This document shows positions 24,611 to 50,463 of a DNA stretch of 64,000 nt, piece after piece. Both the position numbers and the translations under genes were made by a program. Origin of the DNA: Oscillospiraceae bacterium NTUH-002-81. GTDB taxonomy: Bacteria; Bacillota; Clostridia; Lachnospirales; Lachnospiraceae. How positions within the stretch are numbered: position 1 is the stretch's first letter; the number at the start of each line of letters is the position of its first letter. The stretch is from the NCBI GenBank assembly GCA_032620915.1, contig CP136052.1, positions 1,340,501 to 1,404,500 on the forward strand. The letters run 5' to 3'. The notes beneath the pieces were generated by a model. The model was not told where the DNA came from and ran no database searches. It saw only the letters and a list, made by a program, of their open reading frames with translations.

Positions 24611-24892
24611 TTGAAAACATTTCCGAAGCCACTGACGACAGAGGAGGAGAAGGAATATCTTAAGAGGTATCGTAAGGGCGACCAAACGGCCAGGAATGTA
24701 CTGATCGAGCGGAACTTAAGGCTGGTGGCACATATTGTAAAAAAATATCAGTCGTCGGGGGAGGATACAGAAGATCTGATCTCCGTCGGCACCATCGGGC
24801 TCATCAAGGCCGTTATGACATTTGACGCGGCCAAAGGCAGCCGACTGGCCACTTATGCAGCCCGGTGCATTGATAATGCTATGCTATCATAG
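24611..24892 (+). CDS. sigK: Sporulation sigma-K, N-terminal fragment (split by intervening element)
   Basis: The first 89 codons of the mother-cell sigma factor. [20 protein letters not shown], then [32 protein letters not shown] (region 2) and [15 protein letters not shown] match sigma-K. At Asn89 (24875-24877) the frame runs into the intervening element and stops after AMLS. The start is TTG 24611, 7 nt after GAGGT; a stop at 24599-24601 shows there is no pro-sequence. The fragment has the core-binding region but no region 4, so it should be inactive alone. Joined to the fragment at 50090 it gives a 213-aa sigma-K, comparable to the family once the pro-sequence is excluded. Confidence 0.93.
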
Positions 24893-24896
24893 CGGA
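24858..24896. other. attL of the sigK intervening element
   Basis: Core AATG at 24875-24878. Bases to the right (GCTATGCTATCATAGCGG from 24878) form one arm of the predicted attP inverted repeat; bases to the left are sigK coding sequence. Confidence 0.8.
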
Positions 24897-25041
24897 ACAA
24901 ACGGCGGTTGAGGTGGCGGAACGGGTGTCTTTTGAGGCAAAATGGCGCCTGCTGGCGAGAGTGGGAGTACGCTGATATATTCTGATTTCCAATGTATCGG
25001 GTGCAGTAAAAGTAGCCCCGCTGCAAATTCTTCAGTTTCCA
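24897..25041 (+). other. Left-end coding-like stretch that would extend the recombinase on the excised circle
   Basis: From the crossover onward (24879) a frame reads [13 protein letters not shown] ... RLLARVGVR and stops at TGA 24973-24975. This frame has no start here, but it is exactly in phase with the last codons of the recombinase at 50085-50089. Excision would therefore fuse it to the recombinase. A further open stretch (SNVSGAVKVAPLQ) continues from 24976 toward the HTH gene at 25042 without an ATG. Confidence 0.7.
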
Positions 25042-25488
25042 GTGGTGCTGCCGCACAAGTTTCAGAACGCAGAAAAGTTCAATTTGCAGTTCCTGGACTT
25101 CTCAGAAATCACCGAAACAGCGGACAAGCTGCGCTGGCTTCGCTACCAGAAAGGCCTGCGCCAGAGAGACGTTGCAGACTACGCCGGGATAGACCGGAGC
25201 ACCTATGTCCACTATGAGGAATACGGCAAAGATCTCTATCCGCCGGAGCACATGGAGAAAATCGCGCAGCTTTTTGAAGTGCCGGTCAATACGCTTCTGG
25301 ATGACTACAATCTATTTCTGAGAAATGGTCAGGGTGAGCAGATCAAGGCGATCCGAACGAAACTGGGGCTGACGCAAAAACAATATGCGGACAAGCTGGG
25401 TGTCAGCCTTGGCAGTCTCAAGCATTGGGAGCAAAACCGCAAGCAGATTTTCAAATCCACATGGGAGAAGTATTTCAAGCAGACGTAA
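25042..25488 (+). CDS. Tandem helix-turn-helix (XRE type) regulator
   Basis: A 148-aa protein with two XRE-like domains: LRWLRYQKGLRQRDVADYAGIDRSTYVHYEEYG and IKAIRTKLGLTQKQYADKLGVSLGSLKHWEQNRKQI. The start is uncertain. GTG 25042 lacks a Shine-Dalgarno, and the frame is open back to a stop at 24973, reading plausible protein, so a non-ATG start near 24979 is possible. It is the first gene inside the left end. On the excised circle it would lie just downstream of the recombinase, making it a candidate regulator of excision or of cargo expression; this is inference. Confidence 0.75.
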   Translation: MVLPHKFQNAEKFNLQFLDFSEITETADKLRWLRYQKGLRQRDVADYAGIDRSTYVHYEEYGKDLYPPEHMEKIAQLFEVPVNTLLDDYNLFLRNGQGEQIKAIRTKLGLTQKQYADKLGVSLGSLKHWEQNRKQIFKSTWEKYFKQT

Positions 25489-25543
25489 TCATAGCAAAAC
25501 GAGCAGACCGGCTGTTGAGGCTGGCCTGCCCGTTTGCTATGTA

Positions 25544-25720
25544 TTATTGCTGCGCTTTCAGGTGTTTCACGGCTGCGTCCACCAGTTCCAGCTTCTGCTC
25601 CGCGGAGCAGGGCAGCTTCTGGATGGATTTCAGCGCCTGCTCGGACTGGAACTTCGCCAGCTCCTGCCCAAGCTCCTGCTGCGCCTGCTTTGATTTCGGG
25701 AAGATCAGAAATACTTCCAT
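25544..25720 (-). CDS. Small helical protein
   Basis: A 58-aa protein (MEVFLIFPKSKQAQQELGQELAKF ... AAVKHLKAQQ) starting at ATG 25720 with GGAAAGGAGG just upstream. It is rich in Q, K, E and A, and probably helical. It belongs to a minus-strand group with the zinc-ribbon, RepA_N-like and MobC-like genes. No function is recognised; a small basic or helical protein near the element end could be an excision factor, but nothing in the sequence proves it. Confidence 0.55.
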   Translation of the reverse strand: MEVFLIFPKSKQAQQELGQELAKFQSEQALKSIQKLPCSAEQKLELVDAAVKHLKAQQ

Positions 25721-25862
25721 GGCTGCCCTCCTTTCCAGTGCGTTTTCTGCTTCAATCTATGCTTGTGTTCCGGCTGCTATGTAGACAAATAGAACTCGAT
25801 TTCGCGGCTGCGAGGAAAATCGTATTGCCGCGCGGCTTTGGTGGTGCGGGAATGCTTGCAAT

Positions 25863-26124
25863 TCAAGGGCTTTTCGCCCCTGAATTGTCTACGCCCGAGC
25901 GGCGTTTGCGAGCGGATTTCGCCTTCTGCTGGCGATGAACCTCTCTGGCGCAGGCGGGGCAGTATTTTGTCCTGCCGGAGCGGGCGAGAATGCCCGTGCC
26001 GCAGACTTCGCAGCGGCGTAGTTTTTTTCGGGCTGAGGATGGCCTGTTCCAGCTTTGGCTGTCCCGGCGTCAGGCGGAAGAGCGTGCCATCCGGCAGCCG
26101 CTCGATGGGGTCAAGCTTGTGCAT
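25863..26124 (-). CDS. Zinc-ribbon protein, frameshifted
   Basis: ATG 26124 (after AAGGAAGG) starts MHKLDPIERLPDGTLFRLTPGQPKLEQAILSPKK. After an A7 run (T7 on the + strand, 26022-26028) the good sequence moves to another frame: LRRCEVCGTGILARSGRTKYCPACAREVHRQQKAKSARKRR, with two CxxC pairs of a zinc ribbon, ending at 25863. One A fewer restores a single protein of about 86 residues. As written the first frame continues to about 25777 as nonsense. It overlaps the RepA_N-like gene by 14 nt. Function unknown; DNA binding is likely from the basic tail. Confidence 0.6.
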
Positions 26125-26497
26125 CTTCGCCTTCCTTTGTGATGAGTTTTGCATCCGCTGGGTAATTCAGCGTAATAAGCGCGGGCTTTCCCAAGCCCTG
26201 CTTGCGCCGAACGATCAAGCCGCTGTATTCCAGCTCCCGGAAGATCCGCGTGGCGCTTTGGCGGCTGCGGTGGAGCTTTGTCTGTGCCTGCTCCAAGGTG
26301 AAGTACAGCCGGATCGTGCCGTCCGGCTCGACGTAGCCGTTCTGGCGGGAAATGCTGGCTCTGTCCAGCAGCAGCGCATAGAGCACCTTGGCGTCGTTGC
26401 TGATGTCCCGCAGGGCTTCGTCTTGGAGAAGGAACCTCGGAAGCGGCACATAGGACGCCGCCGGGCTTTGCATCGTGAGCTTGCAAAAAGTTTTCAT
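26111..26497 (-). CDS. RepA_N-type replication initiator domain protein
   Basis: A 128-aa protein starting at ATG 26497 after AGGAGGTC. YVPLPRFLLQDEALRDISNDAKVLYALLLDRASISRQNGYVEPDGTIRLYFTLEQAQTKLHRSRQSATRIFRELEYSGLI is the winged-helix region of the RepA_N initiators of Firmicutes plasmids and mobile elements. The usual long C-terminal half is absent, so it is either a short regulatory version or truncated. It follows the mobilisation gene on the same strand and suggests plasmid or IME ancestry of the element. Confidence 0.75.
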   Translation of the reverse strand: MKTFCKLTMQSPAASYVPLPRFLLQDEALRDISNDAKVLYALLLDRASISRQNGYVEPDGTIRLYFTLEQAQTKLHRSRQSATRIFRELEYSGLIVRRKQGLGKPALITLNYPADAKLITKEGEDAQA

Positions 26498-26726
26498 CTG
26501 ACCTCCTGTCCCATCCATCAATCCATCCATTTTTGTGTTGATTGATAGATTGATTCTCTTGTATCTTGGTTTATTTCTTATTAGTTAGAGGATGAATTTC
26601 AGCCCCGATGGAGGGCACGAAAATCGTCGTCCTGAAATCCGGTTGCGGAACGCTCCGGAGCGTCAGCTTGTCCACCGTCCGGAAAACCGGTGACGGAAAA
26701 CCCACACATGGAAAATCCCGTTGTGG
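26498..26726. other. Short intergenic region with palindrome
   Basis: It holds a perfect 14-bp palindrome ACGCTCCGGAGCGT at 26650-26663 and repeated CCGGTTGCGG/CCGGTGACGG words. A relaxase gene, expected after MobC, is not present here. No gene is supported. Confidence 0.35.
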
Positions 26727-27041
26727 TCAAAGCTCATCTCTCTGCCGCACTTTCAGCAGTTCCCAGATCTCGGCTTGCCGCGCTTTCAGTTCGGCAACGT
26801 CGTCTTCATAGCAGCGCCCGGTGCTGTTGATGCGACGGCAGATCTGGTTGATGTTCGAGGCGGCAGCTAGCTTCTTTTGCTCGGTGTAGTCCACCTTGAT
26901 GATGTAGCCGTCGATGAGCATCTTGCGGGCATACGCTCCAAAATTGTGTGTCCCCAACTGGCGCATCTTGTGCTGGATGAGATGCAGCTCCTGCTCGTTC
27001 AGGCAGATTTCCTTGCGGATGGGGCGCGTGCGGTCCGGCAT
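26727..27041 (-). CDS. MobC-like relaxosome accessory protein
   Basis: A protein of about 104 aa starting at ATG 27041 (a GTG at 27050 is also possible). RTRPIRKEICLNEQELHLIQHKMRQLGTHNFGAYARKMLIDGYIIKVDYTEQKKLAAASNINQICRRINSTGRCYEDDVAEL is typical of MobC mobilisation proteins: a ribbon-helix-helix-like N-terminus and the Y...L.........NQI.R..N motif. MobC normally helps a relaxase at oriT. No relaxase is visible in the element, so mobilisation would need one in trans, or the module is decayed. Overlap with the preceding gene implies coupled translation. Confidence 0.8.
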   Translation of the reverse strand: MPDRTRPIRKEICLNEQELHLIQHKMRQLGTHNFGAYARKMLIDGYIIKVDYTEQKKLAAASNINQICRRINSTGRCYEDDVAELKARQAEIWELLKVRQRDEL

Positions 27042-27046
27042 GAGAA

Positions 27047-27307
27047 TCACCCCTTCAGGTGCAGCCCGAAGGCACCGTTTTCTTCCAGAATTTCCAGATA
27101 GCCGTTGCCGGTGAGTTCAGCAAAAACCGGAGCAACTTTTTCGGGCGGAAGGGTCAGAGCATTTGCAAGTTCCTGCGCACTCAGACCGCCGTCCTCGAAG
27201 GTGTACAAGAGCGCGCCGGTGAGCTTGGCTTCTGCGGAGAGGTTCGTATCCAGCAGGAGGCGGGTGGGTACAGCAGTCATGTGGGGGTGGTTGTAGTAAG
27301 TGGTCAT
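27047..27307 (-). CDS. Small winged-helix-like element protein
   Basis: An 86-aa protein starting at ATG 27307 after AAAGGAG. It begins MTTYYNHPHMTAVPTRLLLDTNLSAEAKLTGALLYTFEDGGLSAQELANALTLPPEKVAPVFAELTGNGYLEIL, a helix-turn-helix pattern reminiscent of replication initiator N-domains. It leads a three-gene minus-strand set with MobC and RepA_N-like genes. It probably binds the repeat region just upstream (27384-27797), but that is inference. Confidence 0.6.
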   Translation of the reverse strand: MTTYYNHPHMTAVPTRLLLDTNLSAEAKLTGALLYTFEDGGLSAQELANALTLPPEKVAPVFAELTGNGYLEILEENGAFGLHLKG

Positions 27308-27884: not shown

Positions 27885-28628
27885 TTATTCGAGCAAATCC
27901 TCTATATCCCTTTGATCGTATTCAGTTTTCCGCATCAGCCGACAGACGCCGTCTGCCTCATCCCGCTGCTGCAAAAGCTGGGTGAACGCCCGATAGAGTG
28001 CGGCCTGCCGACGCTCGATCACGCCGCGATTCTGCTGCATGGCATCCGCTGCTTTGCGGATGGACAGTCCCTCGGAAAAGCGTTTCCGGAAGAGATTGGC
28101 GTAGTCGTTGAGCACCGTTTTGAGCGACTGCTGGGCAAATGCGAGATCCTCACACATGGCCTGATATGCCTCGCGGTTGGATACGCCGATGTACTGCTTC
28201 CGCTCCCGGATGAGTTTGTATCGCCGCAGATCCATCCGGTAGTTTTCGCAGATGTCCTTGGCGTATTCATAGTAGGTTCTGCTGCAACGGATGGCGCGCT
28301 CCGCGTACTCGTCATCAACGTAAGTGAAGGGCTTGCTCTTGGGCTCCGGAAAGCCGTCCTCTGTTACTTCTCCGATCATTTCCGATTCGACCTCACGTCG
28401 GGTCTGACGGATGTATTTATCTCTAAGAATACCATCCACATTCACCTGCTCACAGAAGGACTCCAGGCGAATGGTGTAGTATTCCTCATTGCCTTCCCGG
28501 ATGAAGCTGGCATCCTTGCAGATCACAACAGCTTCGCCGGTATCGATATCTTTTACCACGCGGACAACGTAGATCCGCTTGCCGTCGTATCGTTTATAGT
28601 AACCGGCAAAAACGCGTTTGACTGCCAT
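27885..28628 (-). CDS. Hypothetical element protein with DUF1653-like N-terminus
   Basis: A 247-aa protein starting at ATG 28628; GGAGGGG lies 11 nt upstream. The first 70 residues (VKRVFAGYYKRYDGKRIYVVRVVKDIDTGEAVVICKDAS) resemble small beta domains such as DUF1653, a weak match made by eye. The remainder is helical, with many Tyr/Arg residues and a helix-turn-helix-like segment (SEGLSIRKAADAMQQNRGVIERRQAALYRAF). Function is not recognised. It lies between the iteron-like region and the cargo operons. Confidence 0.6.
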   Translation of the reverse strand: MAVKRVFAGYYKRYDGKRIYVVRVVKDIDTGEAVVICKDASFIREGNEEYYTIRLESFCEQVNVDGILRDKYIRQTRREVESEMIGEVTEDGFPEPKSKPFTYVDDEYAERAIRCSRTYYEYAKDICENYRMDLRRYKLIRERKQYIGVSNREAYQAMCEDLAFAQQSLKTVLNDYANLFRKRFSEGLSIRKAADAMQQNRGVIERRQAALYRAFTQLLQQRDEADGVCRLMRKTEYDQRDIEDLLE

Positions 28629-29103
28629 GCATAGGCCCCTCCTTTCCGGGTGATTTGCTATCAGTATATCATAGAGTGCGGCCGATAAACAGGACAATTT
28701 GAAAAACGCGGATCAGAGAGTATTGAAGAATAGCAAGCACATCCGGTGTCCGTACACACCGGAAAAATGCACGCGCTGCCCCCCTCCGTCCAAGCGTGAA
28801 TTTTATCATTTGGGATACTCCCAAACCCTGTGTTTTTGATAAACCTCGGTTGTAATCAGAGAAATGAGATGATAACAAGAGCAGCACAGACAGCTGGGCT
28901 ACCGAAATGGCAACGGACGCGATTATTTCCAAAATATTTTTGAAAAATCATGCGGATAAATCATTTCGTATTGTAATTTGTCGAAACTTGTGTCATAATT
29001 ATTTACAACGTTGCTAAGCGCTGTTGCGCTTGGCTGCAAGCATGATGAATCAGTGCTCTGCCAAACGGCGGGGCACATTTTGTTTATCAGGAGGAGATTC
29101 CTT
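28629..29103. other. Intergenic control region before the cargo regulator
   Basis: About 475 bp. It contains a perfect hairpin TTTGGGATACTCCCAAA at 28809-28825, nested within a TTTATCA/TGATAAA pair, and a promoter at 28971-28999. An 87-codon minus-strand open frame here has no ribosome-binding site and is not convincing. Confidence 0.5.
28971..28999 (+). promoter_or_regulatory. Putative promoter for XRE regulator and cargo operon
   Basis: TTGTAA and CATAAT are separated by 17 bp, about 105 bp before the XRE gene start. Confidence 0.55.
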
Positions 29104-29322
29104 ATGGCAGTCAGTTATAAAAAGCTCTGGAAAATGCTGATCGACAAAGATATGAAGAAAAAAGATCTCTGCGCGAAAGCCGGTATCAGTACGGCCTCCG
29201 TCACCAAGATGGGCAAAGGCGGCCATGTCACTACAGAGGTGCTTGCTAAGATATGTGCAGCGATGGATTGTGGAGTGGATGATATTATGGAGATTGTGCT
29301 TGATGAAAGTGAGAAAAAATAG
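29104..29322 (+). CDS. XRE-family HTH regulator
   Basis: A 72-aa protein (MAVSYKKLWKMLIDKDMKKKDLCAKAGISTASVTKMGKGGHVTTEVLAKICAAMDCGVDDIMEI), a minimal Cro/C1-type helix-turn-helix of the YozG-like kind. The start is ATG 29104 after AGGAGGAG; longer in-frame extensions lack a ribosome-binding site. It precedes the four-gene helicase operon. A copy of the last codons of this gene and its 3' flank recurs at 40004, after that operon. Such small regulators often stand before restriction or defence operons. Confidence 0.85.
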   Translation: MAVSYKKLWKMLIDKDMKKKDLCAKAGISTASVTKMGKGGHVTTEVLAKICAAMDCGVDDIMEIVLDESEKK

Positions 29323-29359: not shown

Positions 29360-29411
29360 CCAGAATGAAAAAATTTGAGGAATCCAGAAAACAACATAAG
29401 GAGGAATGCAT

Positions 29412-30971
29412 ATGGCTTCACTAACACATGTCTGTATGTGGGCGGATAATGGCTGGAAGCGAATTACAGCAGAACAAGCCGCCAGATTGCATCCGGGTGG
29501 AACTGTATCTGCTCATAGTGGTCTGTTTATGTGTGAACTCTGTGGCCAGTATGTTATTCTTACCAACGGTGATATTAGGATACGCTACTTCAAACACAGT
29601 GCTTATGAGAAAAGCAAAGATTGTCCTGAGCGCACATTCGGAGCTGGATATTCAATCTCTTACGGTTCTCAGGAACACGATTTACCAATCCGTATTACAA
29701 GCGTATCCTCATCTTCTTTCAGCTTTGAAGTCGGCTTGATTCGTGTTCCAATAAGTTCTCTCGGCAAGGATTTTTGTATAGAAATCAAACCAAAGGGAGC
29801 ATTTGATATACCCTATGTGTATACCAAAGAACGTCTGAACTACGACAGTATTACATATCTTCCTATCGGTGAAAGGCCGTTTGAAAAATACACTCTCAGT
29901 TTCCAAAATGGAAACGATAAATTACGTGAATTCTGGCCGGCAGAGATTAAAGGCATTGATCCGGAAGGCACATTGTTTGAAAAAGTTTCCGGCAAAAAAC
30001 TCTCATATGATGCCGATGTTGAGATTGGTAAAGAATACTACCTGCTAAAACGTGGCTACATCTATAGGAAGTCATTCAGCAGCGTGCGAATTCAAGAAAT
30101 CATGCAAAAACGAATCGGGTGGGAAACTTGGAGTCTCTATGTGGTTTCTGCATCTGCATTTAATGAAGATGCAGCCCGATTCTATCTCGACTTCCATTGT
30201 CGGCTGACAGATCACCCTATTTCATTGCAACCGGTATGGCCGTTATTTGTTGAAGGAAATTATATTGTTAAGCACAATCAAAACAGTATGTATATGCTTA
30301 TCGAAGGTAATGTAGCCGCAGTTAAAACATTTCCTTCTGTGACAGTTCGTCAGCTAAATTACAATTCATCTCAGTCAAAACTATATGAGGTGTTTTGTTC
30401 CGGCAGACAGCAGTTAATATCTGCTGGCCGCACTCAAGCCTTACAATACACATACCTTTGGAAAGAGCCTCTTGATCAAGTGGGCTTGCATCCAGAAGTT
30501 TCAGTAACCGATATTGCAGGTGCTGAGGTTGATCCTGGCGAGACCGATACTTTACCGCACGACAAAACATTGCGCTTCAAATCAACATTTGATGGAGAGC
30601 TAATTATCTTCAACAATAACCGTGTTGTAGATAAGCGGAAATTATCCGCTGACAAATATATAGAGTTGAACGGACTATCCTACGGTTTAGGCGTTCAAGT
30701 TGTCATTGGCTTTGATGTCATCTGGCAAATCGATTTCAAGAAGCAACAGCCCATCGTTGTAAATGACGAAATTGAAATGCTGAAGCGAATTACTAATGTA
30801 TCAGAGGCAACAATCCCGGCTCCGCACTCTTTGCGAAATATGTTAGCGGGTATGAATTGCTATCCGCAGGTATGTCAGTGGATACGAAAATGTATTAAAA
30901 ATGGCACCATTAATGAGCAATCATACCGCAGATTGCAAGAGGCCTATCGCAGCATGAATACGAATAGATAA
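29412..30971 (+). CDS. Helicase-operon protein 1, N-terminal zinc-binding
   Basis: A 519-aa protein starting at ATG 29412, 7 nt after AGGAGGA; an ATG at 29406 is too close to the box. The N-terminus has a zinc-site pattern SGLFMCELCGQYV ... RYFKHSAYEKSKDCPER (C-x2-C, H, C), reminiscent of CoiA-like domains. The rest is predicted beta-rich (VDPGETDTLPHDKTLRFKSTFDGELIIF) and ends in a helical segment. No enzymatic motif is seen. It is the first gene of a tight operon (12 bp to the next). By size and order it could correspond to a DruB-like subunit; this is a hypothesis only. Confidence 0.7.
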   Translation: MASLTHVCMWADNGWKRITAEQAARLHPGGTVSAHSGLFMCELCGQYVILTNGDIRIRYFKHSAYEKSKDCPERTFGAGYSISYGSQEHDLPIRITSVSSSSFSFEVGLIRVPISSLGKDFCIEIKPKGAFDIPYVYTKERLNYDSITYLPIGERPFEKYTLSFQNGNDKLREFWPAEIKGIDPEGTLFEKVSGKKLSYDADVEIGKEYYLLKRGYIYRKSFSSVRIQEIMQKRIGWETWSLYVVSASAFNEDAARFYLDFHCRLTDHPISLQPVWPLFVEGNYIVKHNQNSMYMLIEGNVAAVKTFPSVTVRQLNYNSSQSKLYEVFCSGRQQLISAGRTQALQYTYLWKEPLDQVGLHPEVSVTDIAGAEVDPGETDTLPHDKTLRFKSTFDGELIIFNNNRVVDKRKLSADKYIELNGLSYGLGVQVVIGFDVIWQIDFKKQQPIVVNDEIEMLKRITNVSEATIPAPHSLRNMLAGMNCYPQVCQWIRKCIKNGTINEQSYRRLQEAYRSMNTNR

Positions 30972-30982
30972 GGAGATGCATT

Positions 30983-33748
30983 ATGAATTACATTGATCTT
31001 CTTACTCAGGAAGAAAAACCAATCCTCTGTAGAATCATCACTGGTAGAGATTTCAAAGAACTCTTTAAAAGAAACGAACAGGAATTCTCGAAAATACGAA
31101 AAGGATTCAGAGCCAAATCATTGACAGAGCAGCAAGCGCTTTCGATTGCTATAGTCAATGTTGATAAGCCCTTTATTGCAATGTGGGTCAATACAAGGGT
31201 AGATATCTGGCTTAAGGAAATTCAGGAAAATATTGAGGAACTTGAAGAGGAGGGTTCAACGCATGACATTGCCCTGGCATCGACTATGCTTGACTCCGTC
31301 TTTGCCAATAATGTTGATTTATACCTCAAACTTGCAGGAAAAACTATGGATGCGGATGTCCGCTCTAAACTTCATGAAAGAATGGAGAGCATCAAATCTG
31401 AGCGTGCAAGGAATGCGGAGGTGGCTGACCGTATTAAGGTTATGGAAGAAGAAAAACGCCATCTACTCGATCAAATTGCTGCTGCTCAGCAGAGTGTTAA
31501 TACTATAAAGGCGGAATACGAACGGAAAATACAAGAGCTTGAACAGGATAAAGACACATTGGAATCCTTGTTAGCTGAAGCGCAAGAGAGAATTACTGAG
31601 TTGCAGACTGCTCCTACCGCTGCTAAAAGTGACGATGCCGATTATCTCGCACAGTTTGACGATACAGATACTTCTGTTCTGCCCTCTGTTGGTAGCGATG
31701 AGATCGTTTCTTTATGTGGTGTTATCTCAGATTACAATGGGCAGAAATGGCTTATTCGACATGCTGATTTGAGTCATAATGGGCACTATCACATTTTCCG
31801 CAAAAGTGAAGATGTTCCGCCGTACTTCACAAATAGAGACAAGATTTTCTATAAGGACGGCCCTTCCAATGACGGTTTTTATGGCATTTGGACTTGGTCC
31901 GCAACTCCGAATGAGAAGGACCCTTCCAAGGATTATATATTATCCCGGTACAACATGGATCTTGATGCCATTGAAGTCGTTACCATTTCAGAAGCATCAA
32001 ACCTTGACAACCTGATCAATCTGCTGAAAAACGGGATCGAATACCAACCTCATAGTCATAGAGTCATGTTCGCCTTTTATGCATCCAAAGGACAGTACAT
32101 GGGCATTCTGTGCAACACCCAAGAACTCAACACGGTTAATGGAAAAACTGCCTTTGCTGAAGATTGCATTGAAGTACCAGTATATGAATTTACTGGTGGC
32201 AACATTTTGCGTTTGGATAATGGGCTCTCTTTCTATAGAAATGCGTTTGCTGGTCTTCCAAGTAAGCTTTATCAATTGAAAAGTCCACTTGATATTGTAA
32301 AGAATATCGTTTTCTCTTCAATTTCTTGGGGTACATATAAAACAAGAGGGTTGACTCGTGCCGAGTATAGAACCTTCAAGGATTTTCTCGGTTCAATTCC
32401 GGTTGACGACATAACGCGCAAGATTGAGACTGCGTGCCGTTGCTCCAATTCCGCTGCTAAAGAATTGCTGGATGAATTCCTAAATGTGGTCTGGAAATAC
32501 GTTGATGGAGATAGTTTAGAAGACGAAATAATCCTCTCTGCTATTTCTGCAAGTACTGAACTTCAGGAAAGAATAAAAGCACTCATTCGAACGGATTGGG
32601 AAGCAGAGAATAAAAGCTTACTAGATAAAGCCCAGAAAAAACTCGATTCACTTGATGCCCAGTTAAAATCTGCTACTATTAGTTTAACCAAAGCACAAGA
32701 AGCGTTTAATAAAACAAAATCGGAAGAAGAACGTCTTGCCGGTGTCATAGCAGAAAAAGAAAAACTGGCTGAGGATGTTGAAGTAGCAGTTGCTGAAAGA
32801 ATACAAAAGGCACGCGAAAACGCGGCAGATTTCATTGCAAATATGGCTTTTGTTGGTGGACAACCGATTCAAGTTGCAGCCACAGAAACTCCTGCCGCAG
32901 TTGAAGTTTCGTCCAAACCTGTTATTGCCCCATATCACACTTTTTCAGCATTCGATGATCTAAATGATCTCGAAGTTCATCACTCTTGGGCAGATGTCAT
33001 TAATACAGCCGCATTTGAACTCAAGGAAGCTGGTGTAGCAGAAAAATACAGAAGCAGCCTAGCCGCGTTCCTCTGCGCTGCCTATATCGAAAAACAGCCA
33101 ATTTTTCTTGTTGGCCCTAATGCAATTGACATTGTTCAAGCATTCAGTGCAGCCGTAACAGGTCATAAATATGGAATGCTCTGCTGTGAGGGCGGTTATT
33201 GCAATCAGGTAATCACTGAAATTGGCACCGATGGCGAAGACATCGTGATAATCAACAATCTTCTTGCAAGTGGCTGGATGAACAGACTCCCGGAGATTCT
33301 TTCTCAAAAAGATATTTTCTATGTTGCCACCCATCCATATGCAGAAGATATCCAAGTTGAGCCAAAGAGCCTGTACGGATTTATGCTACCGCTGTTTACA
33401 GAGTTTTTTGTGGATGAAAAAGCTACCGGAAAATACTATGGAGGTTATTTTGCTGAGGACTTCAAAACCTACTCAACGCCAAAGGGTACACGTAAAGATT
33501 TAAGGGTCCTTTCAAAATTAAAGATAGGTTCGTTAGTCAGGAACCGAATCAACAGACTTGTTGCTACGATGCACGGCATTTACTCTGCAACAACAACGGA
33601 TGAGGACTTCTTATATGCTGTCCTTCCTATTGCTTATGCTTCACTGGAAATTAATGAACTCACAGAGGCGATTGCTGATCCTCAAAAGGATATCGCAATT
33701 TCTGAAGGCCTCAAGCGTGATCTGCAGTATGTTTTAGGAGAATTCTAA
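30983..33748 (+). CDS. Helicase-operon protein 2: coiled coils plus degenerate ATPase-like C-terminus
   Basis: A 921-aa protein. Residues about 125-205 form a coiled coil (RIKVMEEEKRHLLDQIAAAQQ ... ELEQDKDTLESLLAEA), and about 535-610 a second one. Between them is a domain containing WLIRHADLSHNGHYHIFRKSEDVPPYF. The C-terminal part resembles an AAA+/McrB-like core: IFLVGPNAIDIVQAF sits where a Walker A would be but lacks the GKS/T, and EDIVIINNLL looks like a degenerate Walker B. It is thus probably a non-hydrolysing scaffold. Its stop overlaps the next start (TAATGA), so the subunits are likely made in fixed ratio. Function not recognised. Confidence 0.7.
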   Translation: MNYIDLLTQEEKPILCRIITGRDFKELFKRNEQEFSKIRKGFRAKSLTEQQALSIAIVNVDKPFIAMWVNTRVDIWLKEIQENIEELEEEGSTHDIALASTMLDSVFANNVDLYLKLAGKTMDADVRSKLHERMESIKSERARNAEVADRIKVMEEEKRHLLDQIAAAQQSVNTIKAEYERKIQELEQDKDTLESLLAEAQERITELQTAPTAAKSDDADYLAQFDDTDTSVLPSVGSDEIVSLCGVISDYNGQKWLIRHADLSHNGHYHIFRKSEDVPPYFTNRDKIFYKDGPSNDGFYGIWTWSATPNEKDPSKDYILSRYNMDLDAIEVVTISEASNLDNLINLLKNGIEYQPHSHRVMFAFYASKGQYMGILCNTQELNTVNGKTAFAEDCIEVPVYEFTGGNILRLDNGLSFYRNAFAGLPSKLYQLKSPLDIVKNIVFSSISWGTYKTRGLTRAEYRTFKDFLGSIPVDDITRKIETACRCSNSAAKELLDEFLNVVWKYVDGDSLEDEIILSAISASTELQERIKALIRTDWEAENKSLLDKAQKKLDSLDAQLKSATISLTKAQEAFNKTKSEEERLAGVIAEKEKLAEDVEVAVAERIQKARENAADFIANMAFVGGQPIQVAATETPAAVEVSSKPVIAPYHTFSAFDDLNDLEVHHSWADVINTAAFELKEAGVAEKYRSSLAAFLCAAYIEKQPIFLVGPNAIDIVQAFSAAVTGHKYGMLCCEGGYCNQVITEIGTDGEDIVIINNLLASGWMNRLPEILSQKDIFYVATHPYAEDIQVEPKSLYGFMLPLFTEFFVDEKATGKYYGGYFAEDFKTYSTPKGTRKDLRVLSKLKIGSLVRNRINRLVATMHGIYSATTTDEDFLYAVLPIAYASLEINELTEAIADPQKDIAISEGLKRDLQYVLGEF

Positions 33749-40075: not shown

Positions 40076-40084
40076 AGCGAAACT

Positions 40085-43000: not shown

Positions 43001-43242
43001 AGAAAAATTTGCCCACCGGCCAGCGCTATATCCACCACAAGGAACGCGGCAGCAAGGTGCTGCTGTTTGTCCGTGAGTTTAAGGCGGACCGTATGACCGG
43101 CGGTGCGGAGGCGTACACCTATCTGGGCACGGCGAACTACGTGAAGCACACAGGCAGCAGGCCGATGAATATCACCTGGCAGCTGGACCGCCCGATCCCG
43201 GCGAAGTTCTTGAAGAAGACAAATAAGTTGGTAGTAGGCTGA
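40085..43242 (+). CDS. PLD nuclease - SF2 helicase - DUF3427 protein, two frameshifts
   Basis: One gene of about 1,050 codons broken twice. Frame one starts at ATG 40085 after TAAGGAG ([21 protein letters not shown]) and runs to MFTELKK. After an A6 run (40517-40522) a second frame gives the phospholipase D-type nuclease ([29 protein letters not shown]) and the helicase: [18 protein letters not shown] in place of [13 protein letters not shown] and [14 protein letters not shown]3427-like region follows. After an A5 run (43003-43007) a third frame completes it ([25 protein letters not shown]) to 43242. One base less at each site restores the whole. Such proteins are common in defence islands. 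It is more GC-rich than the upstream operon. Confidence 0.82.
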
Positions 43243-43271
43243 CATACTTGGCATGATTTAAGGAGACACCT

Positions 43272-45982
43272 ATGGACGCACGAAAGCACTTAATTATCAT
43301 AAAAGGAAAAGACCAGACGGACTCGGTTGCGAGCTTTCAGTTCCATGACGGGAAGTGCGAGGTCGTCTATATCAGTGCGCCCAATAAGACATACAGCTTT
43401 CAGCGTAGCAGTGTGGAGATCCTACCCCTGCAAAAGAAAATCGACCCTGCGCAGGTGATTGTCACCGCAAATGGGCAGACCATCAGCGAAATTGATGAGC
43501 TTCTCGACTTCGGTGGGTATTATCGTATTGTCCGCAACGGAAAGAGAGATTTATCATTCCGTAGGAGCGAAGTGCAGTTCCGGCAAAATTGCCTGACAGA
43601 CGGTAAAAATCAAGAAACATGCCAATATTTCAAGGAGACTGCCGCTGCAATCAGTCTGGTGGCGGAAAACGGTATCAACATTCTAAGCATGCAGTATGAC
43701 AAGATCAAGCAGGTCAGCGAGGATACCGTGTTGGCAAGCTATCTTGCACCGCAGAAAGACGTCAAAATGCCCCAGATGCCGGAGGCAGTGATCTATCCGT
43801 TTGGCCTGAACCAGAGTCAAAAGCTGGCGGTAGAACGGGCGCTTTCCTCCAAAATCAGTATCATTCAGGGGCCTCCGGGTACTGGAAAGACACAGACGAT
43901 CCTGAATATCATCGCCAATGTTGTCCGCAGTGGAAAAAACGTGGCGGTTGTCTCCAACAACAATTCCGCAACGCATAATGTTGTGGAAAAGCTGGAGAAG
44001 AAAAATTCAGCCTTTCTGACTGCGTTTCTCGGCATCCTTGCCAACAAAGAGAGAGGTTTCTGGATGCACAGACAGGCACCTATCCGAATATGAGCGATTG
44101 GGAAATGCCGCCGGAGGAGCAACAGCAATTAGACCGGGAAACAACTGCGCTTTCCAAAGAACTGAACGAAATGCTCAATGCTAAAAACCGCATTGCGGAA
44201 ATTGAGCAGGAGTTCTTGCGGCTAAACCCGGAGCAGCATTATTTTGAGGAATATTACGCAAGTTACAGCGATGTGCCAATGGATAGCATGGACAAGCTGT
44301 CCTCGCAGAAGCTTCTTGCGCTTTGGATGGAATTTGAACAGCATGCAGAGCGTGAGACTCGCTTGGGCCTGTTGCAAAAAATATCCATCATGTTTCGATT
44401 CAACCGTAATGCGCTCAAATTGTTTATCCGTTCCCCGGAACAGGTCATTCCCTATTTGCAGAGTCAGTTTTATTCGGTGAAGAGGCAGGAACTGGAGGCT
44501 GAAAAGCAGGAATTGCACCGAAAGCTGGAGCGTTACGCTTTCGACGCGAAAATGGAAGAGCTCACACAGAAGTCCCTGCGGCTGTTCCGGGCGGAACTGG
44601 CAACACGGTATCATTGGCGAAATAATAGACGGTGCTTTGAAAAGAATGATTTCCGCCGGAATTCCGAAGAGTTTACCCGCGAGTATCCGGTGGTGCTTAG
44701 CACGACCTATTCCATCAAAGGAACGCTGAGCATCGATCATATCTACGATTACTTGATCGTGGATGAAGCCTCACAGGTCGATTTAGCCACAGGGGTGCTG
44801 GCATTTTCCTGTGCGCGGAATATCGTGATTGTCGGGGACTTGAAGCAGCTCCCCAATGTGCTGACGGAGGATGACATTCGCACCAGCGATGCCATTTGGC
44901 AAAAGCATTCCTTGGATGAGCGTTATCGCTTTTCTACCCACAGTTTGCTGTCCTCTGCATTGGAAATATGGCAGGATGCACCTGTTACGCTGCTGCGGGA
45001 ACACTACCGCTGTCACCCGAAGATCATCAATTTCTGCAATCAGAAGTTCTACCACGGACAGCTGATCGTTATGACAAAAGACCATGATGAGCCGGATGTG
45101 TTGACCATGTTCCGGACGATTGCCGGTAATCACGCCCGTGGGCATCTCAACCAGCGCCAGATCGATGTCATCCAGCAGGAGGTGCTTCCGCGGCTGCATC
45201 AGCAAAATTTCCAGAGCATCGGTATTATCACGCCATATCGGGATCAGGTGACAGCCATCCGCAAGCAGCTGGGAGATACTTATGAGGTGGACACCGTCCA
45301 CAAGTTTCAGGGGCGAGAACAAGATGCGATCATTCTGACCTCAGTCGACAATGTCATCACAGATTTTGTGGATGATCCCCATATGCTGAATGTGGCGGTT
45401 TCCCGCGCGGTCCATTCGCTGACGGTGGTCACATCGCAGGACCCACGTAATGACCAGACCAACTACGGTGATTTGACACGATACATCGAATATAACAATT
45501 TTGAAGTGATCCAGAGCCAAGTCTACTCCGTGTTCGATATGCTCTACCAGGGCTATGCCGAGCAGCGCAAGGTATATCTGCAAAAACATAAGCGGGTATC
45601 TGAGTACGATTCTGAGAATCTCATGTACTCTGTGATTCAAGAGGTGCTGTCCGAAGAGGCATTTTCCACTATCGGCTGCGCTGTACATGTTTCTCTTGCA
45701 ACACTGGTGAAAGACTATGAACCGTTGACGGGGGAAGAACGCAAATATGCCCGGAATCCGTTGACGCATGTTGATTTTTTGTTATTCAATCAAATGGATA
45801 AACAACCTGTGCTAGCAATTGAAGTGGACGGGACTGGCTTCCATGAAGCCGGGAGCAAACAGGCAGAACGCGATATAAAGAAGAACTCCATTCTGAAGAA
45901 GTGTGCCATCTCGCTGCTGCGGCTACGTACAGACGGTAGCGGAGAAAGAGAGAAGATTAGGACTGCACTAAAGAGAAAATGA
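43272..45982 (+). CDS. SF1 (Dna2/UPF1-type) helicase with DUF2726 nuclease-like domain, frameshifted
   Basis: A gene of about 900 codons starting at ATG 43272 after TTAAGGAG. The first part ends with Walker A IQGPPGTGKTQTILNIIANVVRSGKNVAVVSNNNSA. At an AG dinucleotide run (44048-44055) the frame is lost; two bases fewer give FLDAQTGTYPNMSDWEMPPEEQ and a continuous second part. That part has YLIVDEASQVDLATG (motif II), VGDLKQLPNV (motif III), YRCHPKIINF, TVHKFQGREQDAIILT and NVAVSRA. The C-terminus (VDFLLFNQMDKQPVLAIEVDGTGFHEAGSKQAERD) matches the DUF2726 nuclease-like fold. It lies 29 bp after the PLD helicase, probably the same operon and system. Confidence 0.82.
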
Positions 45983-46197
45983 TTATGTCGAGAATAATCA
46001 GGAATACAATCAGATGTAAAAAATGTGGAGACGTCATCGAAAGTAAAACCATTCTTTGAGACATAACGCTTCGTTTCAGCAATTCTATTATGAATGCTAG
46101 ATTGTATTGGTTTCGATTATACCCCATTATACCCTTGATTTAGATGGTATAATGGGGTATAATTCTGCATAGAATAGTATCTCACAGGAGGTGCGCT
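45983..46197. other. Intergenic control region before AAA ATPase
   Basis: 215 bp containing a large perfect inverted repeat and a promoter, listed separately. No gene. Confidence 0.5.
46117..46163 (+). promoter_or_regulatory. Promoter embedded in a 17-bp perfect inverted repeat
   Basis: TTATACCCCATTATACC (46117-46133) and GGTATAATGGGGTATAA (46146-46162) are perfect inverted copies around a 12-nt loop. TTGATT at 46135-46140 and TATAAT at 46158-46163 are 17 bp apart, so the right arm fills the spacer and overlaps the -10 box. This is a likely operator controlling the gene at 46198; a transcript hairpin is an alternative. Confidence 0.7.
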
Positions 46198-47982
46198 ATG
46201 GACTTATCTGAAATGCAAACCCGCGTGGCGGAGCTGGAACAGCAGATTTCTGCTTTGCCCGCTGGCTCTGTCACGAAGAAAACCGTCAACGGCAAGGAGT
46301 ATTTTTACCACCGTTGGACGGAGAACAAGAAGCGGCGGGAGAAGTATATTCCTGCTGACGAATTGGAGAATTTCCGCGCGCAGATCGAACAGCGGAAGGA
46401 ACTGGAGCAGGAGCTGAAAGCGCTGAAAAAGCAGCTGCCCAAGGCGAAATCTGCGAACCTTTCCGCGTTTGCCACCAATGTCCGCACCGGCAAGGCGCTG
46501 CGTTCCCTTGCGGCGTCTGTTCGCAGCTATCGCAGGCGCGAGTGTTTCCGGCAGCTGCACGACTTTGTCTATGGTGAGCCGCAGGACAAGGTATTCATCC
46601 TCTACGGCCTGCGCCGGACGGGAAAGACCACCATGATCCGCCAGATTTTTGCGGAGATGAGCGACACGGAGCTTGCCAAGGCAGCGTTCATTCAGATCAC
46701 CGCAAAAGACACGCTGGCAGACGTGAACCGCGACCTTAAGGCATTGGAAGTGCAGGGTTTTCGCTATGTGTTCCTCGACGAAGTGACGATGATGGAGGAT
46801 TTTATCGAGGGCGCAGCGCTGTTTTCTGACGTGTTTGCGGCCTGCGGTATGAAGATCGTGCTCTCCGGCACGGACTCGCTGGGCTTCCTCTTTACAGAGG
46901 ACGAGCAGCTTTACGACCGCTGCATCCTGCTGCACACCACATTCATCCCTTACCGTGAGTTTGAATCCGTCCTCGGCGTTCACGGCATTGACGAGTATAT
47001 CCGCTACGGCGGCACCATGAGTCTCGGCGGCGTCCACTACAACGAGACCTCCACCTTTGCCAGCAAGGAAAGCACCGACGAATATGTGGACACCGCCATC
47101 GCCCGCAACATCCAGCACTCCCTGCGCTGCTATCAGTATGAGGGACATTTTCGCCATCTGCGGGATTTATACGAGAAGGGCGAGCTGACCAGCGCCATCA
47201 ACCGGGTGGTGGAGGACATCAACCATCGCTTTACGCTGGAGGTGCTGTCGCAGGATTGGAAGTCCCACGACCTTGGCATTTCCGCCAGCAATCTGCGCCG
47301 GGATCGGAAGAACCCGACGGACATCCTCGACCGCATCGACCTTGCGCTTGTCACCGACAGCCTGCGGAAGCTGCTGGAGATCCGCAACAAGGCAGAGCAG
47401 ACCGTAGCGCTGGACGATGTTCACGCGGCAGAGATCAAGGAGTATCTGGACTTGCTGGACTTAACGCGAGAGATTGACGTGCTGCACCTGCCGGATGTCA
47501 GTACAAAGTCCGAACGCACGGTGATTGCACAGCCGGGGCTCCGCTATGCACAGGCGGATGCGCTGATCCGCAGTCTGCTGCTGGATGAGACGTTCAGCGC
47601 CCTGTCTCTTGCGGAGCGCACCGCCGTGCAGCAGCGCATCCTGACCGAGATCAAGGGGCGGATGCTGGAGGACATTGTCCTGCTGGAAACCAAGCTGACA
47701 AACCCCAAGAAGCAGGTATTTGTCCTGCAATTCCCCGTGGGCGAATTTGACATGGTGGTGTTTGACCCGGAGGCAGGCTCCTGCCAGATTTTCGAGATCA
47801 AGCACAGTGAAGAAGCTGTCCCGCAGCAGTATCGCCATCTGATCGACGGGCAAAAATGCGCCCAGACCGAGCACCGCTACGGCCCGATCATCGGGAAGAT
47901 TGTCCTCTATCGTGGAGAAAGCCAAGAGATAGACGGCATTCAGTATCAGAATGTGGAAGAATATCTGCGAAACCTTGCATGA
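46198..47982 (+). CDS. AAA ATPase with C-terminal PD-(D/E)xK-like domain
   Basis: A 594-aa protein starting at ATG 46198 after AGGAGGTG. The N-terminal coiled coil (MDLSEMQTRVAELEQQISAL ... LEQELKALKKQ) is followed by the P-loop FILYGLRRTGKTTMIRQIF at about 136, a Walker B YVFLDEVTMMEDF near 190 and a sensor segment KIVLSGTDSLGF. This is the ATPase_2/DUF4143-type fold. The C-terminus has FPVGEFDMVVFDPEAGSCQIFEIKHS near 515-533, with the D and ExK pattern of PD-(D/E)xK nucleases. It is a single-gene unit with its own operator and terminator. A defence or toxin-like role is plausible but unproven. Confidence 0.78.
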   Translation: MDLSEMQTRVAELEQQISALPAGSVTKKTVNGKEYFYHRWTENKKRREKYIPADELENFRAQIEQRKELEQELKALKKQLPKAKSANLSAFATNVRTGKALRSLAASVRSYRRRECFRQLHDFVYGEPQDKVFILYGLRRTGKTTMIRQIFAEMSDTELAKAAFIQITAKDTLADVNRDLKALEVQGFRYVFLDEVTMMEDFIEGAALFSDVFAACGMKIVLSGTDSLGFLFTEDEQLYDRCILLHTTFIPYREFESVLGVHGIDEYIRYGGTMSLGGVHYNETSTFASKESTDEYVDTAIARNIQHSLRCYQYEGHFRHLRDLYEKGELTSAINRVVEDINHRFTLEVLSQDWKSHDLGISASNLRRDRKNPTDILDRIDLALVTDSLRKLLEIRNKAEQTVALDDVHAAEIKEYLDLLDLTREIDVLHLPDVSTKSERTVIAQPGLRYAQADALIRSLLLDETFSALSLAERTAVQQRILTEIKGRMLEDIVLLETKLTNPKKQVFVLQFPVGEFDMVVFDPEAGSCQIFEIKHSEEAVPQQYRHLIDGQKCAQTEHRYGPIIGKIVLYRGESQEIDGIQYQNVEEYLRNLA

Positions 47983-48005
47983 TAACAGTTCAATAAAAAC
48001 TTAGG

Positions 48006-48035
48006 CAGCCTCTGGTTGAAACCAACCGGAGGCTG
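48006..48035 (+). terminator. Terminator after AAA ATPase gene
   Basis: CAGCCTC pairs with GAGGCTG, with TGGTT/AACC extending the stem, followed by TCTTTTA. It lies 24 bp after the stop. Confidence 0.8.
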
Positions 48036-48380
48036 TCTTTTACTTATTAAATCGCAACTTGTTTATCCGATATGCTATAAACAAGTTTGCCGGAATTGAC
48101 TTGACGTATGACAAGTAGCAATGCGCAAAAATCGCGCGGCGAGACTGCAAGAATGCCGTCGATGACGAAAACAATAATGTTCTAAATAGCATGCATCGCT
48201 CATTTCATCAATCATTTTCTCAATGCACATGAGCGATGCGCTCCGAACTGGCACGGTCAGCGCGCGAAAACCTCTGCCTCCCGCAGAAATTTTCGGATTC
48301 TTCCCTTGGGTACCTTTTCAAATGGATCCCAATCCGTTATAATATATCTACCAACCTAACGAATAACGCGAGGTGCCGCC
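48036..48380. other. Recombinase upstream region with two inverted repeats
   Basis: It holds AACTTGTTTAT/ATAAACAAGTT (48056-48066 and 48077-48087) and GCATCGCTCAT/ATGAGCGATGC (48193-48203 and 48229-48239), both perfect 11-bp arms, then a promoter. No gene is supported. Confidence 0.55.
48315..48343 (+). promoter_or_regulatory. Putative promoter of the excision recombinase
   Basis: TATAAT at 48338-48343 with a weak TTTTCA 17 bp upstream, about 38 bp before the start codon. It looks vegetative; I do not see a convincing sigma-E type promoter, although one could be missed by eye. Confidence 0.45.
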
Positions 48381-50090
48381 ATGAAAACGAAAGATACGCC
48401 GAAGCAATATGTCATCTACTCCCGCAAGTCCAAATTCACCGGCAAGGGCGAAAGCATTGAGAACCAGATCGAGCTTTGCCGCCAGTACATCGCCATGCAC
48501 TTTGGCGAGGAAGCGGCGGAAAACGTGCTGGTCTACGAGGACGAGGGCTTTTCCGGCGGCAATCTGGAGCGCCCGCAGTTCAAGAAGATGATGAAGGACT
48601 CCCAGAAGATCGCCTTTGCCGCCATCGTGGTCTATCGCCTCGACCGCATCAGCCGCAACATCGGCGACTTTGCCAAGCTCATCGAGGACCTGGGCGACCG
48701 GCACATCGACTTCATCTCCATCCGCGAGCAGTTCGACACGTCCTCGCCCATGGGCCGCGCCATGATGTACATTGCGTCCGTGTTCTCCCAGCTGGAGCGG
48801 GAGACCATCGCCGAGCGCATCCGGGACAATATGCACGAGCTGTCCAAGACCGGACGCTGGCTGGGCGGCACAACGCCCACGGGCTATGCCTCGGAGAGCC
48901 TGTCCAGCGTGACGGTGGACGGCAAGGTGAAGAAGGCCTGCAAGCTCAAGTCCATCCCGGAGGAAATTCAGCTGGTCAAGACGATCTTCGCGGTGTTCAT
49001 GGAGACCGGCTCTCTCAGCAAGACCGACCAGTATCTTTTGGAGCACCGCTGCGTCACAAAGCGCGGCAAGCAGTTCACCCGCTTTGCCATCCGGGGCATT
49101 CTCACGAACCCGGTTTACATGATTGCCGACGAGACGGCGTATCAGTATCTGAAAGAAAACAATGTTGACCTGTTTGCCGAGCGCGCAGAATTCGACGGCG
49201 AGCACGGCATCATGGCCTATAACCGCACCCTCCAGCGCCCCGGCAAGGCCAACCAGATCCGCCCTATGGAGGAATGGATCGTGGCGGTGGGCAAGCATCC
49301 GGGCATCATCTCCGGCAGCGACTGGGTGCAGGTGCAGACCATGCTGGACGTCAACAAATCCAAGAGCTACCGCAGGCCCCGCAGCAATGTGGCGCTGTTG
49401 TCTGGCCTTCTGCGTTGCGGCGAATGCGGCGACTATATGCGCCCGAAGCTGACTAACCGCAAGAATGCGGAGGGCGAGCTGATCTACACCTACATGTGCT
49501 CCACCAAGGAGCGCAGCCACGGCACGGTCTGCGCCATGAAAAACTGCAACGGCAACACGCTGGACGCTAAAATCATCGAGGAGATCCGCAAGCTTTCCGC
49601 CGACAAGGAGACCCTTACCCGGCTGCTGGCGCAGACCAAGAAGGTTATCAGCGGCAGCAAGGAGGGCTACGACGCAGAGCTTGCGCTGCTCCGGGAAAAG
49701 CACACCGAGACGGAAGACCGCATCAAGCGGCTGGTGGAATCCCTGTCCGTTGCCAGCGACACCTCTGCGAAGTACGTCATGGAACAGATCGACGCGCTCC
49801 ATCAGGAGAGCGAGACACAGCAGATGAGGCTTTCTGAGCTGGAAGCCCTGACTGAACAGAGCCGGATGCTGCATCAGGAGTTTGCCTTCCATCAGGAAAT
49901 GATCGAATCCTTTGCCAGCGCGGTGGATACGGCGACGCTGGAGGAAAAACGCCGCCTGCTGCGCACTATCGTCAAAAAGGTGGTCTGGGACGGCAAAAAT
50001 GCCTATGTTTACCTCTTTGCGGAGGATGGAGAGGCAGATTTGCCGCCCATTGACCAACCTATGTATCCGTTAGGAGAGGATAGCGAATGA
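48381..50090 (+). CDS. Large serine recombinase of the sigK intervening element (SpoIVCA-like)
   Basis: This 569-aa site-specific recombinase is placed to excise the element and rebuild sigK. Catalytic Ser14 lies in YVIYSRKS, with IVVYRLDRISRNIGDF and the GRAMMYIASVFSQLERETIAERI helix of the resolvase domain. The recombinase domain (about 150-300), a zinc ribbon (CGECG at about 344 with later CSTKERSHGTVC) and the coiled coil (about 410-520) are complete. The last codons AGC GAA TGA contain the att core AATG, so the stop codon itself is split by the crossover. On the circular form the TGA becomes TGC and 32 further residues are added before a stop at 24973. The left-hand ATG 48381 has only a weak box (GCGAGG). 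Confidence 0.93.
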   Translation: MKTKDTPKQYVIYSRKSKFTGKGESIENQIELCRQYIAMHFGEEAAENVLVYEDEGFSGGNLERPQFKKMMKDSQKIAFAAIVVYRLDRISRNIGDFAKLIEDLGDRHIDFISIREQFDTSSPMGRAMMYIASVFSQLERETIAERIRDNMHELSKTGRWLGGTTPTGYASESLSSVTVDGKVKKACKLKSIPEEIQLVKTIFAVFMETGSLSKTDQYLLEHRCVTKRGKQFTRFAIRGILTNPVYMIADETAYQYLKENNVDLFAERAEFDGEHGIMAYNRTLQRPGKANQIRPMEEWIVAVGKHPGIISGSDWVQVQTMLDVNKSKSYRRPRSNVALLSGLLRCGECGDYMRPKLTNRKNAEGELIYTYMCSTKERSHGTVCAMKNCNGNTLDAKIIEEIRKLSADKETLTRLLAQTKKVISGSKEGYDAELALLREKHTETEDRIKRLVESLSVASDTSAKYVMEQIDALHQESETQQMRLSELEALTEQSRMLHQEFAFHQEMIESFASAVDTATLEEKRRLLRTIVKKVVWDGKNAYVYLFAEDGEADLPPIDQPMYPLGEDSE

Positions 50091-50106
50091 GCTGCTGATG
50101 ATGTTC
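50067..50106. other. attR of the sigK intervening element
   Basis: Core AATG at 50086-50089. Left of it CCGTTAGGAGAGGATAGCG forms the second arm of the predicted attP inverted repeat; right of it sigK coding resumes with AGCTGCTGATG. Confidence 0.8.
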
Positions 50107-50463
50107 CGTGCCCGGAAGAAATCAGCCCGGGATGTGTCTTTGTATGAGCCTATAGGGACGGATCGGGAGGGGAACGAGATTAGCCTGCTGGATGTCATTG
50201 AGTATGCAGATCCCGAGATTCCGGAGAAAATAGATCTGAAAGATAATACTGTTTATCTGTATGAAGTTATGCATCAGATACTCACTGCCAGAGAACGGCA
50301 GGTGTTGACCATGCGATACGGACTGTATGGCCGGCAGAGCGTCACACAGCGGGAAACGGCAGCTATATTGGGGATTTCCAGATCCTATGTGTCCCGGATC
50401 GAAAAAACAGCGGTTCAGAAATTACAGAAAGCCTTTGAAAAAAGTGGAAGAAGCGAAAGATAG
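50090..50463 (+). CDS. sigK: Sporulation sigma-K, C-terminal fragment
   Basis: The 3' part of sigK. The restored frame resumes with E-L-L from 50090 and then ATG 50098: MMFRARKKSARDVSLYEPIGTDREGNEISLLDVIE (regions 2-3) and YEVMHQILTARERQVLTMRYGLYG...TQRETAAILGISRSYVSRIEKTA (region 4 helix-turn-helix). This matches sigma-K rather than sigma-E (DVSLYEPIG with EGNEISL). In the integrated state no proper ribosome-binding site precedes ATG 50098, although the recombinase stop lies 8 nt upstream and could couple translation. Without the fragment at 24611 it lacks promoter -10 recognition. A hairpin terminator follows. Confidence 0.92.

Follow-up and report, generated by a model that had tools for sequence, protein, structure and literature searches.

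In the genome of Oscillospiraceae bacterium NTUH-002-81, the sigma factor gene sigK is interrupted by an element of 25,211 bp, a length that is counted with one core copy. All coordinates given here are positions in the 64,000-nt stretch of the NTUH-002-81 contig that was analyzed (the window; contig CP136052.1, positions 1,340,501 to 1,404,500). The 5' half of sigK, which encodes region 2 (PF04542), is located on the forward strand at 24611..24878 and starts with a TTG codon; a pro-sequence was not seen. The 3' half, which encodes region 4 as judged from the sequence and a domain search, follows the right core at 50090..50463 (+). The break point lies between the codons for ARCIDN and ELLM, and a core AATG, with AA as the probable exchange dinucleotide, is found at both ends of the element, at 24875..24878 (+) as part of the left attachment site attL and at 50086..50089 (+) as part of attR. 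Joining 24611-24878 to 50090-50463 yields 214 codons including the stop, that is, a protein of 213 amino acids with zero internal stops, which exceeds the cut-off of the NCBIfam equivalog TIGR02846 (spore_sigmaK) with 304.5 versus 298.65 bits. A first-pass annotation of this DNA had proposed a skin-like element of approximately 25.2 kb in sigK and an exact in-frame junction of 213 codons at AATG; both proposals hold, including the coordinates, and the joined product can now be assigned to SigK by the equivalog cut-off.

The rejoined DNA is similar to the uninterrupted sigK of 10 other genomes compared. The genome of NTUH-002-81 consists of a single contig of 3,622,424 bases and is 98.97% complete; a complete second sigK elsewhere, which would have spoken against the proposal, was rejected, as the whole-genome search returned only the two halves as strong sigK matches, the next one being SigE at 41%. 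Uninterrupted sigK genes, which the first-pass annotation had suggested looking for in related genomes, are present in three other genomes of the same genus that were examined (76-77% identity over 192 to 208 residues), and their DNA at the insertion place is similar to the rejoined site of NTUH-002-81. A TTG start without a visible pro-sequence is also seen in the uninterrupted sigK of the relatives L017-L019. Upstream of sigK, a sigma-E/sigma-K-like promoter consisting of GCAC, a spacer of 17 nt and CATATGTTA was read by eye at 24555..24584 (+), on the basis of the sigma-E/sigma-K consensus, and a similar arrangement is visible by eye upstream of most of 16 sigK N-halves. The genome further encodes SigF, SigE, SigG and SpoIIID.

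The right end of the element is formed by the gene of a large serine recombinase of 569 amino acids (48381..50090, +). A serine recombinase had been noted at this junction before, and its gene indeed ends inside the right core. The element thus combines two features of skin elements, namely a serine recombinase with attachment sites at both ends, and the interruption of sigK with exact restoration of the reading frame upon predicted excision. Both ends could be fixed independently, because a copy of the element that is located outside sigK in a Hominifimenecus genome (G145; loci L144/L162), and which is 94% identical at both ends, gives an alignment that stops at window positions 24874 and 50089. 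This copy is positioned past a tRNA gene read by eye as tRNA-Asn, and the sigK gene of G145 is whole. The left and right half-sites are conserved across related elements. In the 15 of 19 first-set elements that have both junctions in view, an average of 10.5 of 12 positions are paired between the arms of the reconstructed circle junction (attP; nine of 12 in the NTUH-002-81 element) and 4.3 of 12 between those of attB; attP is near-palindromic. By eye, the attP arms co-vary in G185, G208, G254 and mostly in G307, which fits the expectation for a real dyad site.

A frame comparison of the 19 stretches revealed that, besides the recombinase, one small gene is common to 13 of them, and it is found in 12 of the 15 first-set stretches with both sigK halves. 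In NTUH-002-81, this gene lies on the reverse strand at 25544..25720 and encodes a protein of 58 amino acids, modelled as a helical hairpin (mean pLDDT 89), which is a candidate recombination directionality factor. A model built from the 13 first-set copies was applied at E<1e-6 to the best 80 of 414 recombinase relatives from a wider scan of genome contigs of 84,980 species. It detected the small gene in 28 of the 80 loci, most of the others showing only one sigK half, and in each of the 15 loci whose recombinase is flanked by both halves, 13 of these loci belonging to non-training genomes. In a second follow-up, 14 genomes were chosen to locate both halves and 12 were examined, two of which are also among the 15 loci; each of the 12 has the small gene in its element or element end, and nine of these elements are full. 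Among 298 genomes of the same family (Lachnospiraceae), it was found in 15 at E<=0.001, i.e., the 13 training genomes as well as G110 and G235, and it is absent from the copy outside sigK in G145.

The candidate factor gene is preceded by a sigma-E-like promoter that follows the family pattern, ATA-N16-CATAGATT (25754..25780, -). The pattern ATW-N15-18-CATANNNT occurs within 100 nt upstream in 17 of 24 non-redundant copies of the small gene outside the first set, or in 15 of 22 when L239 and L240, which are training genomes reached again, are left out; shuffled controls for the 24 gave a mean of 1.19 and a maximum of 4 in 100. In the first set, seven of nine copies carry the pattern. The consensus behind it is that of sigma-E. 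Several spacers contain GGACA, a SpoIIID-like sequence, and the spacer of NTUH-002-81 lacks it.

Elements of this kind have precedents, which are compared here by their published descriptions. The closest parallel is skinCd of C. difficile, which also splits a sigK without pro-sequence, carries its recombinase CD1231 just upstream of the 3' part and possesses a small sporulation-controlled factor, CD1234, for which there is only a candidate in NTUH-002-81; skinCd is excised by the constitutive recombinase and the 72-amino acid factor, which depends on sigma-E and SpoIIID (PMC5025042). Unlike skinCd, the NTUH-002-81 family has many hosts and defence cargo. The B. subtilis element skinBs shares the serine recombinase at sigK (SpoIVCA) and a small directionality factor, Skr, of 64 amino acids, again only a candidate here (PMC6957869). 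However, skinBs is prophage-like and 48 kb in size, its recombinase is controlled by sigma-E and it is associated with pro-sigma-K (PMC5025042, PMC10745906), whereas no phage structural genes were found among the scanned proteins of the NTUH-002-81 element. Site, orientation and genes also set skinBs and skinCd apart from one another (PMC5025042, PMC6957869), and sigK elements are described as spread among spore-forming bacteria (PMC5595907). Island IV in sigK of Bacillus cereus biovar anthracis, a 22-kb island excised in sporulation, is similar to the NTUH-002-81 element in its lack of phage proteins and its restriction/defence cargo (type I restriction-modification), but it resides in another host group, and its SpoIVCA-like recombinase is assumed to lie by the 5' fragment and not by the 3' half (PMC10745906). 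The gin element of Bacillus cereus ATCC 10987 is likewise non-phage and encodes a recombinase and a directionality factor (a candidate here); it differs in that it interrupts gerE instead of sigK and that its recombinase is made at the sporulation phase (PMC5595907). Given skinCd, skinBs, the gin element and the biovar anthracis island, this kind of element is already known, and what is new is the family together with its candidate factor, its distribution and the traffic of its cargo. Among the titles listed by full-text literature searches, whose coverage excludes most subscription papers, none deals with this family of sigK elements.

Related elements show purifying selection on the genes in question. 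For eight of these elements (28 pairs, from which pairs with saturated or very small dS were dropped), the median dN/dS is 0.007 for the sigK N-half (28 of 28 pairs usable), 0.030 for the C-half (14 of 28), 0.073 for the recombinase (6 of 28) and 0.042 for the small gene (10 of 28). Within the group of NTUH-002-81 itself, medians of 0.055 for the recombinase (28 of 28) and 0.067 for the small gene (10 of 28) were obtained, and the highest single value is 0.223, for the small gene. The low ratios indicate that the split halves are kept as coding parts, so that the insertion is unlikely to be dead in those hosts.

Taken as a whole, the locus is very probably a skin-type sigK-intervening element that is excised in the mother cell under the control of the 58-amino acid factor. 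In growing cells and in the forespore, the element would stay integrated and sigK inactive. In the mother cell, sigma-E, perhaps together with SpoIIID, would switch on the 58-amino acid protein (25544-25720) and confine it to this compartment. The protein would then redirect the serine recombinase, whose putatively constitutive production is suggested by a weak sigma-A-like site, from integration to excision. Recombination of attL with attR at the AA/AATG core would produce the 213-codon sigK and a 25.2-kb circle, and the spore chromosome would retain the element, which would thereby be inherited. The element's own recombinase can probably excise it cleanly at spore formation, and gating of late sporulation by the element, as already put forward in the first-pass annotation, is the best inference. 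The conservation of the gene, the promoter in front of it and the precedent of C. difficile suggest that the 58-amino acid protein is a directionality factor which, like CD1234, restricts excision to the mother cell.

Several observations weigh against this explanation. Excision is a prediction from sequence and sites, and the attP pattern gave no match in public viral contigs, so that the circular junction, for which the first-pass annotation had proposed a search, was not recovered there. The small gene was not detected in the three complete elements of G208, G254 and G307, whose recombinase frames are shortened to 324-373 amino acids, so that some hosts may carry dead elements or another control; it was missed at E<=0.001 in four of 17 genomes with a split sigK (G025, G208, G254 and G291), and it occurs without a split sigK in G235, beside an apparent recombinase remnant, and in G110, together with a distant recombinase, sigK being whole in both. 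Seven of the 24 later copies lack the sigma-E-like pattern, which was chosen after the first 13 copies had been viewed and with start codons set by rule. Neither sequence nor fold searches identified a relative of known function for the candidate factor: the fold comparison gave no match at E<=0.001, and scans of Pfam, PHROGs and PDB sequences gave weak scattered matches only. The sigma-A-like promoter upstream of the recombinase (TTTTCA-17-TATAAT; 48315..48343, +) is near chance level, with one site found and a mean of 0.7 in shuffles, and dS is saturated in many of the pairs compared.

Some of these points would also suit a different arrangement, in which excision takes place in the mother cell but the recombinase itself is sporulation-specific, as in B. 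subtilis, and the small protein does something else. The weak sigma-A-like site, the three complete elements devoid of the small gene and the lack of known relatives for the small protein, whose role as a factor is putative, are all compatible with it. However, the small gene goes together with complete sigK elements that have a full-length recombinase and usually stands behind a sigma-E-like promoter, and its size and promoter resemble those of CD1234 (72 amino acids) and Skr (64 amino acids; PMC5025042, PMC6957869), which makes such an arrangement improbable. Even less credit is given to a dead insertion, in which late sporulation would have been lost and sigK would be a split pseudogene that is never rejoined. 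Some cargo genes of the NTUH-002-81 element are broken, excision is predicted from sequence, and the short recombinases of G208, G254 and G307 point to dead members within the family; yet the sigK halves, recombinase, small gene and attachment sites are intact in NTUH-002-81, purifying selection acts on these genes in related elements, and the sporulation sigma factors and SpoIIID are encoded in the genome. The elements of G208, G254 and G307 are possibly dead, or they are excised by another recombinase. We retain mother-cell excision under control of the 58-amino acid factor as the preferred explanation.

The element is not confined to NTUH-002-81. In the family sample, candidates were chosen by their sigK match pattern and 27 genomes, 24 of them from the 298, were re-searched for a split sigK; the halves lie apart in at least 17 of 298 genomes (G000, G020, G025, G027, G028, G056, G147, G166, G172, G174, G185, G190, G208, G254, G271, G274 and G291), which is a lower bound because the inspection covered only the match patterns chosen. 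In three of the 17 (G025, G174 and G291), the halves are on separate contigs; elements with both halves on one contig measure 3.6 to 25.4 kb. A recombinase relative (E<=1e-90) is encoded by 27 of the 298 genomes, comprising all 17 split ones and 10 of the other 281, whose split state was not individually inspected and among which only G145 (96%) and G103 (55%) have recombinases with more than 43% identity. In the wider scan, one adjacency rule was used for all of the best 80 of 414 relatives, and 73 of the 75 testable loci adjoin a sigK half: 70 have the C-half directly downstream and three the N-half in antisense. Five loci are at contig ends, and two, Hominifimenecus L162 and Pectinatus L217, have no adjoining sigK. 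The three loci with the antisense N-half instead of the C-half are L185, L207 and L229, and their left junction looks alike.

By these matches, the element belongs to a large family with related recombinases and attachment sites at one place in sigK. An assembly artefact that joined unrelated DNA into sigK, in favour of which nothing was found, can practically be dismissed in view of similar junctions in many independent genomes. To the first-pass annotation, the element had appeared to be independently evolved. This view was not borne out: the same-place split in at least 17 of 298 genomes and at 73 of 75 of the best recombinase relatives counts against it, and the element is a member of a large, horizontally moving family. 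According to record titles, hosts among the best 80 include Oscillibacter, Pseudoflavonifractor, Anaeromassilibacillus, Flavonifractor, Sporomusa, Lacrimispora and one labelled Faecalibacterium prausnitzii. Nine recombinases, one of them partial, are 94-97% identical to that of NTUH-002-81, whereas the sigK C-half is only 37-51% identical in the seven of these nine loci that have it in view. Such a contrast is what transfer would give, and the comparison shows that the element family moves between distant host species. In the recombinase tree, the majority of the sigK recombinases cluster separately. Support at the base nodes is low (0.0-0.74), one sigK recombinase (G166) carried a wrong label, and G020 and G025 form a second sigK lineage; for these reasons, monophyly is not claimed. 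The recombinases of G020 and G025 are distant relatives (39-42% identity) and represent a more distant lineage at the same insertion place. In a viral contig collection, three of 41 recombinase relatives (L275, L276 and L279) also adjoin a sigK half. G103 (L145) carries a related element outside sigK, whose cargo is 95% identical to that of G056, and the sole SigK match in this genome is weak (E 8.8e-17). In G338 (Clostridiales bacterium CCNA10; C1:3055136-3195490), a distance of about 140 kb separates the two halves of sigK, and a candidate factor copy lies near each end, which possibly reflects nested elements.

It is tempting to speculate, and we lean towards this view with some reserve, that a mobile family uses sigK of gut-type Clostridia as a permanent docking site and, at every transfer, brings along a developmental excision switch of its own. 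The recombinase, the near-palindromic attP and a new sigma-E-controlled factor would travel together, allowing the element to sit harmlessly in a sporulation gene and to ferry exchangeable anti-phage systems between distant families. A split sigK is found in at least 17 of 298 genomes of one family and, judging from record titles, in several further clostridial groups, and the switch appears to be portable. If true, this would explain how mobile DNA comes to land time and again in a developmental gene, and it would tie the traffic of defence islands to sporulation.

Near its left end, the element encodes a two-part helix-turn-helix regulator of the Xre type (25042..25488, +), whose frame is shorter than in the 94% identical relative, where it starts further upstream. 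Beyond the candidate factor gene are those of a RepA_N replication-initiator domain protein (26111..26530, -; PF06970), a MobC-like mobilisation protein (26727..27050, -; PF05713) and a protein of 270 amino acids without family match that is common to sister elements (27885..28697, -). A Cro/C1-type helix-turn-helix protein identified by domain search (29011..29322, +) marks the left edge of a Druantia-like module. This module contains three genes for proteins of 521, 921 and 336 amino acids (29406..34758, +) and a full-length DruE1 helicase of Druantia type I with 1748 amino acids (34758..40004, +; 1744 bits, residues 3-1745). The set of DruA, DruB, DruC and DruD was not recovered with PADLOC: the third gene weakly matches DruD (DruD1 E=1.5e-6), the 921-amino acid protein gave a weak LmuB match only, and the 521-amino acid protein gave no match. 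Downstream are a frame-broken PLD-helicase resembling Type IV restriction enzymes (40085..43239, +), which has 1051-1052 amino acids in the sisters G334-G336, a superfamily-1 helicase in two frames (43272..45982, +), which is a single gene of 902 amino acids in the sister L242, and an AAA_14 ATPase that is conserved in several sister elements (46198..47982, +). In comparison with the intact sister L242, the two helicases show three frame changes (40085-45982), in which real decay and long-read errors are indistinguishable.

Sister elements differ in this region: G335 has lost or never had window 28.9-40.1 kb, with the two flanks present, G336 has 27.7-43.2 kb at 95%, and G332 encodes BREX-type proteins (BrxL, PglZ, BrxC and BrxP) and a DndA/SspA-like protein instead. 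The cargo thus probably consists of exchangeable defence modules, Druantia-like in NTUH-002-81 and BREX in G332. Defence cargo is not universal in relatives, as ordinary genes are apparently what several of the first-set elements contain; by eye, these include sensor kinases, transporters and thiamine-type genes in the Lachnospiraceae sigK elements L118, L120, L126, L130 and L133. The first-pass annotation had expected a cargo different from that of known skin elements, and the absence of prophage character supports this. Nine element proteins were compared with PHROGs and the others scanned against Pfam or PADLOC; the nine include no phage structural protein and match only regulators, a DnaD-like helicase-loader type, integrase and invertase, for which reason a prophage was rejected. 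The first-listed recombinase from a phage record is 37% identical to that of NTUH-002-81. Among the proteins scanned, no relaxase family was matched, and the mobilisation-type genes are the MobC-like and RepA_N genes, which suggest a mobilisable ancestor.

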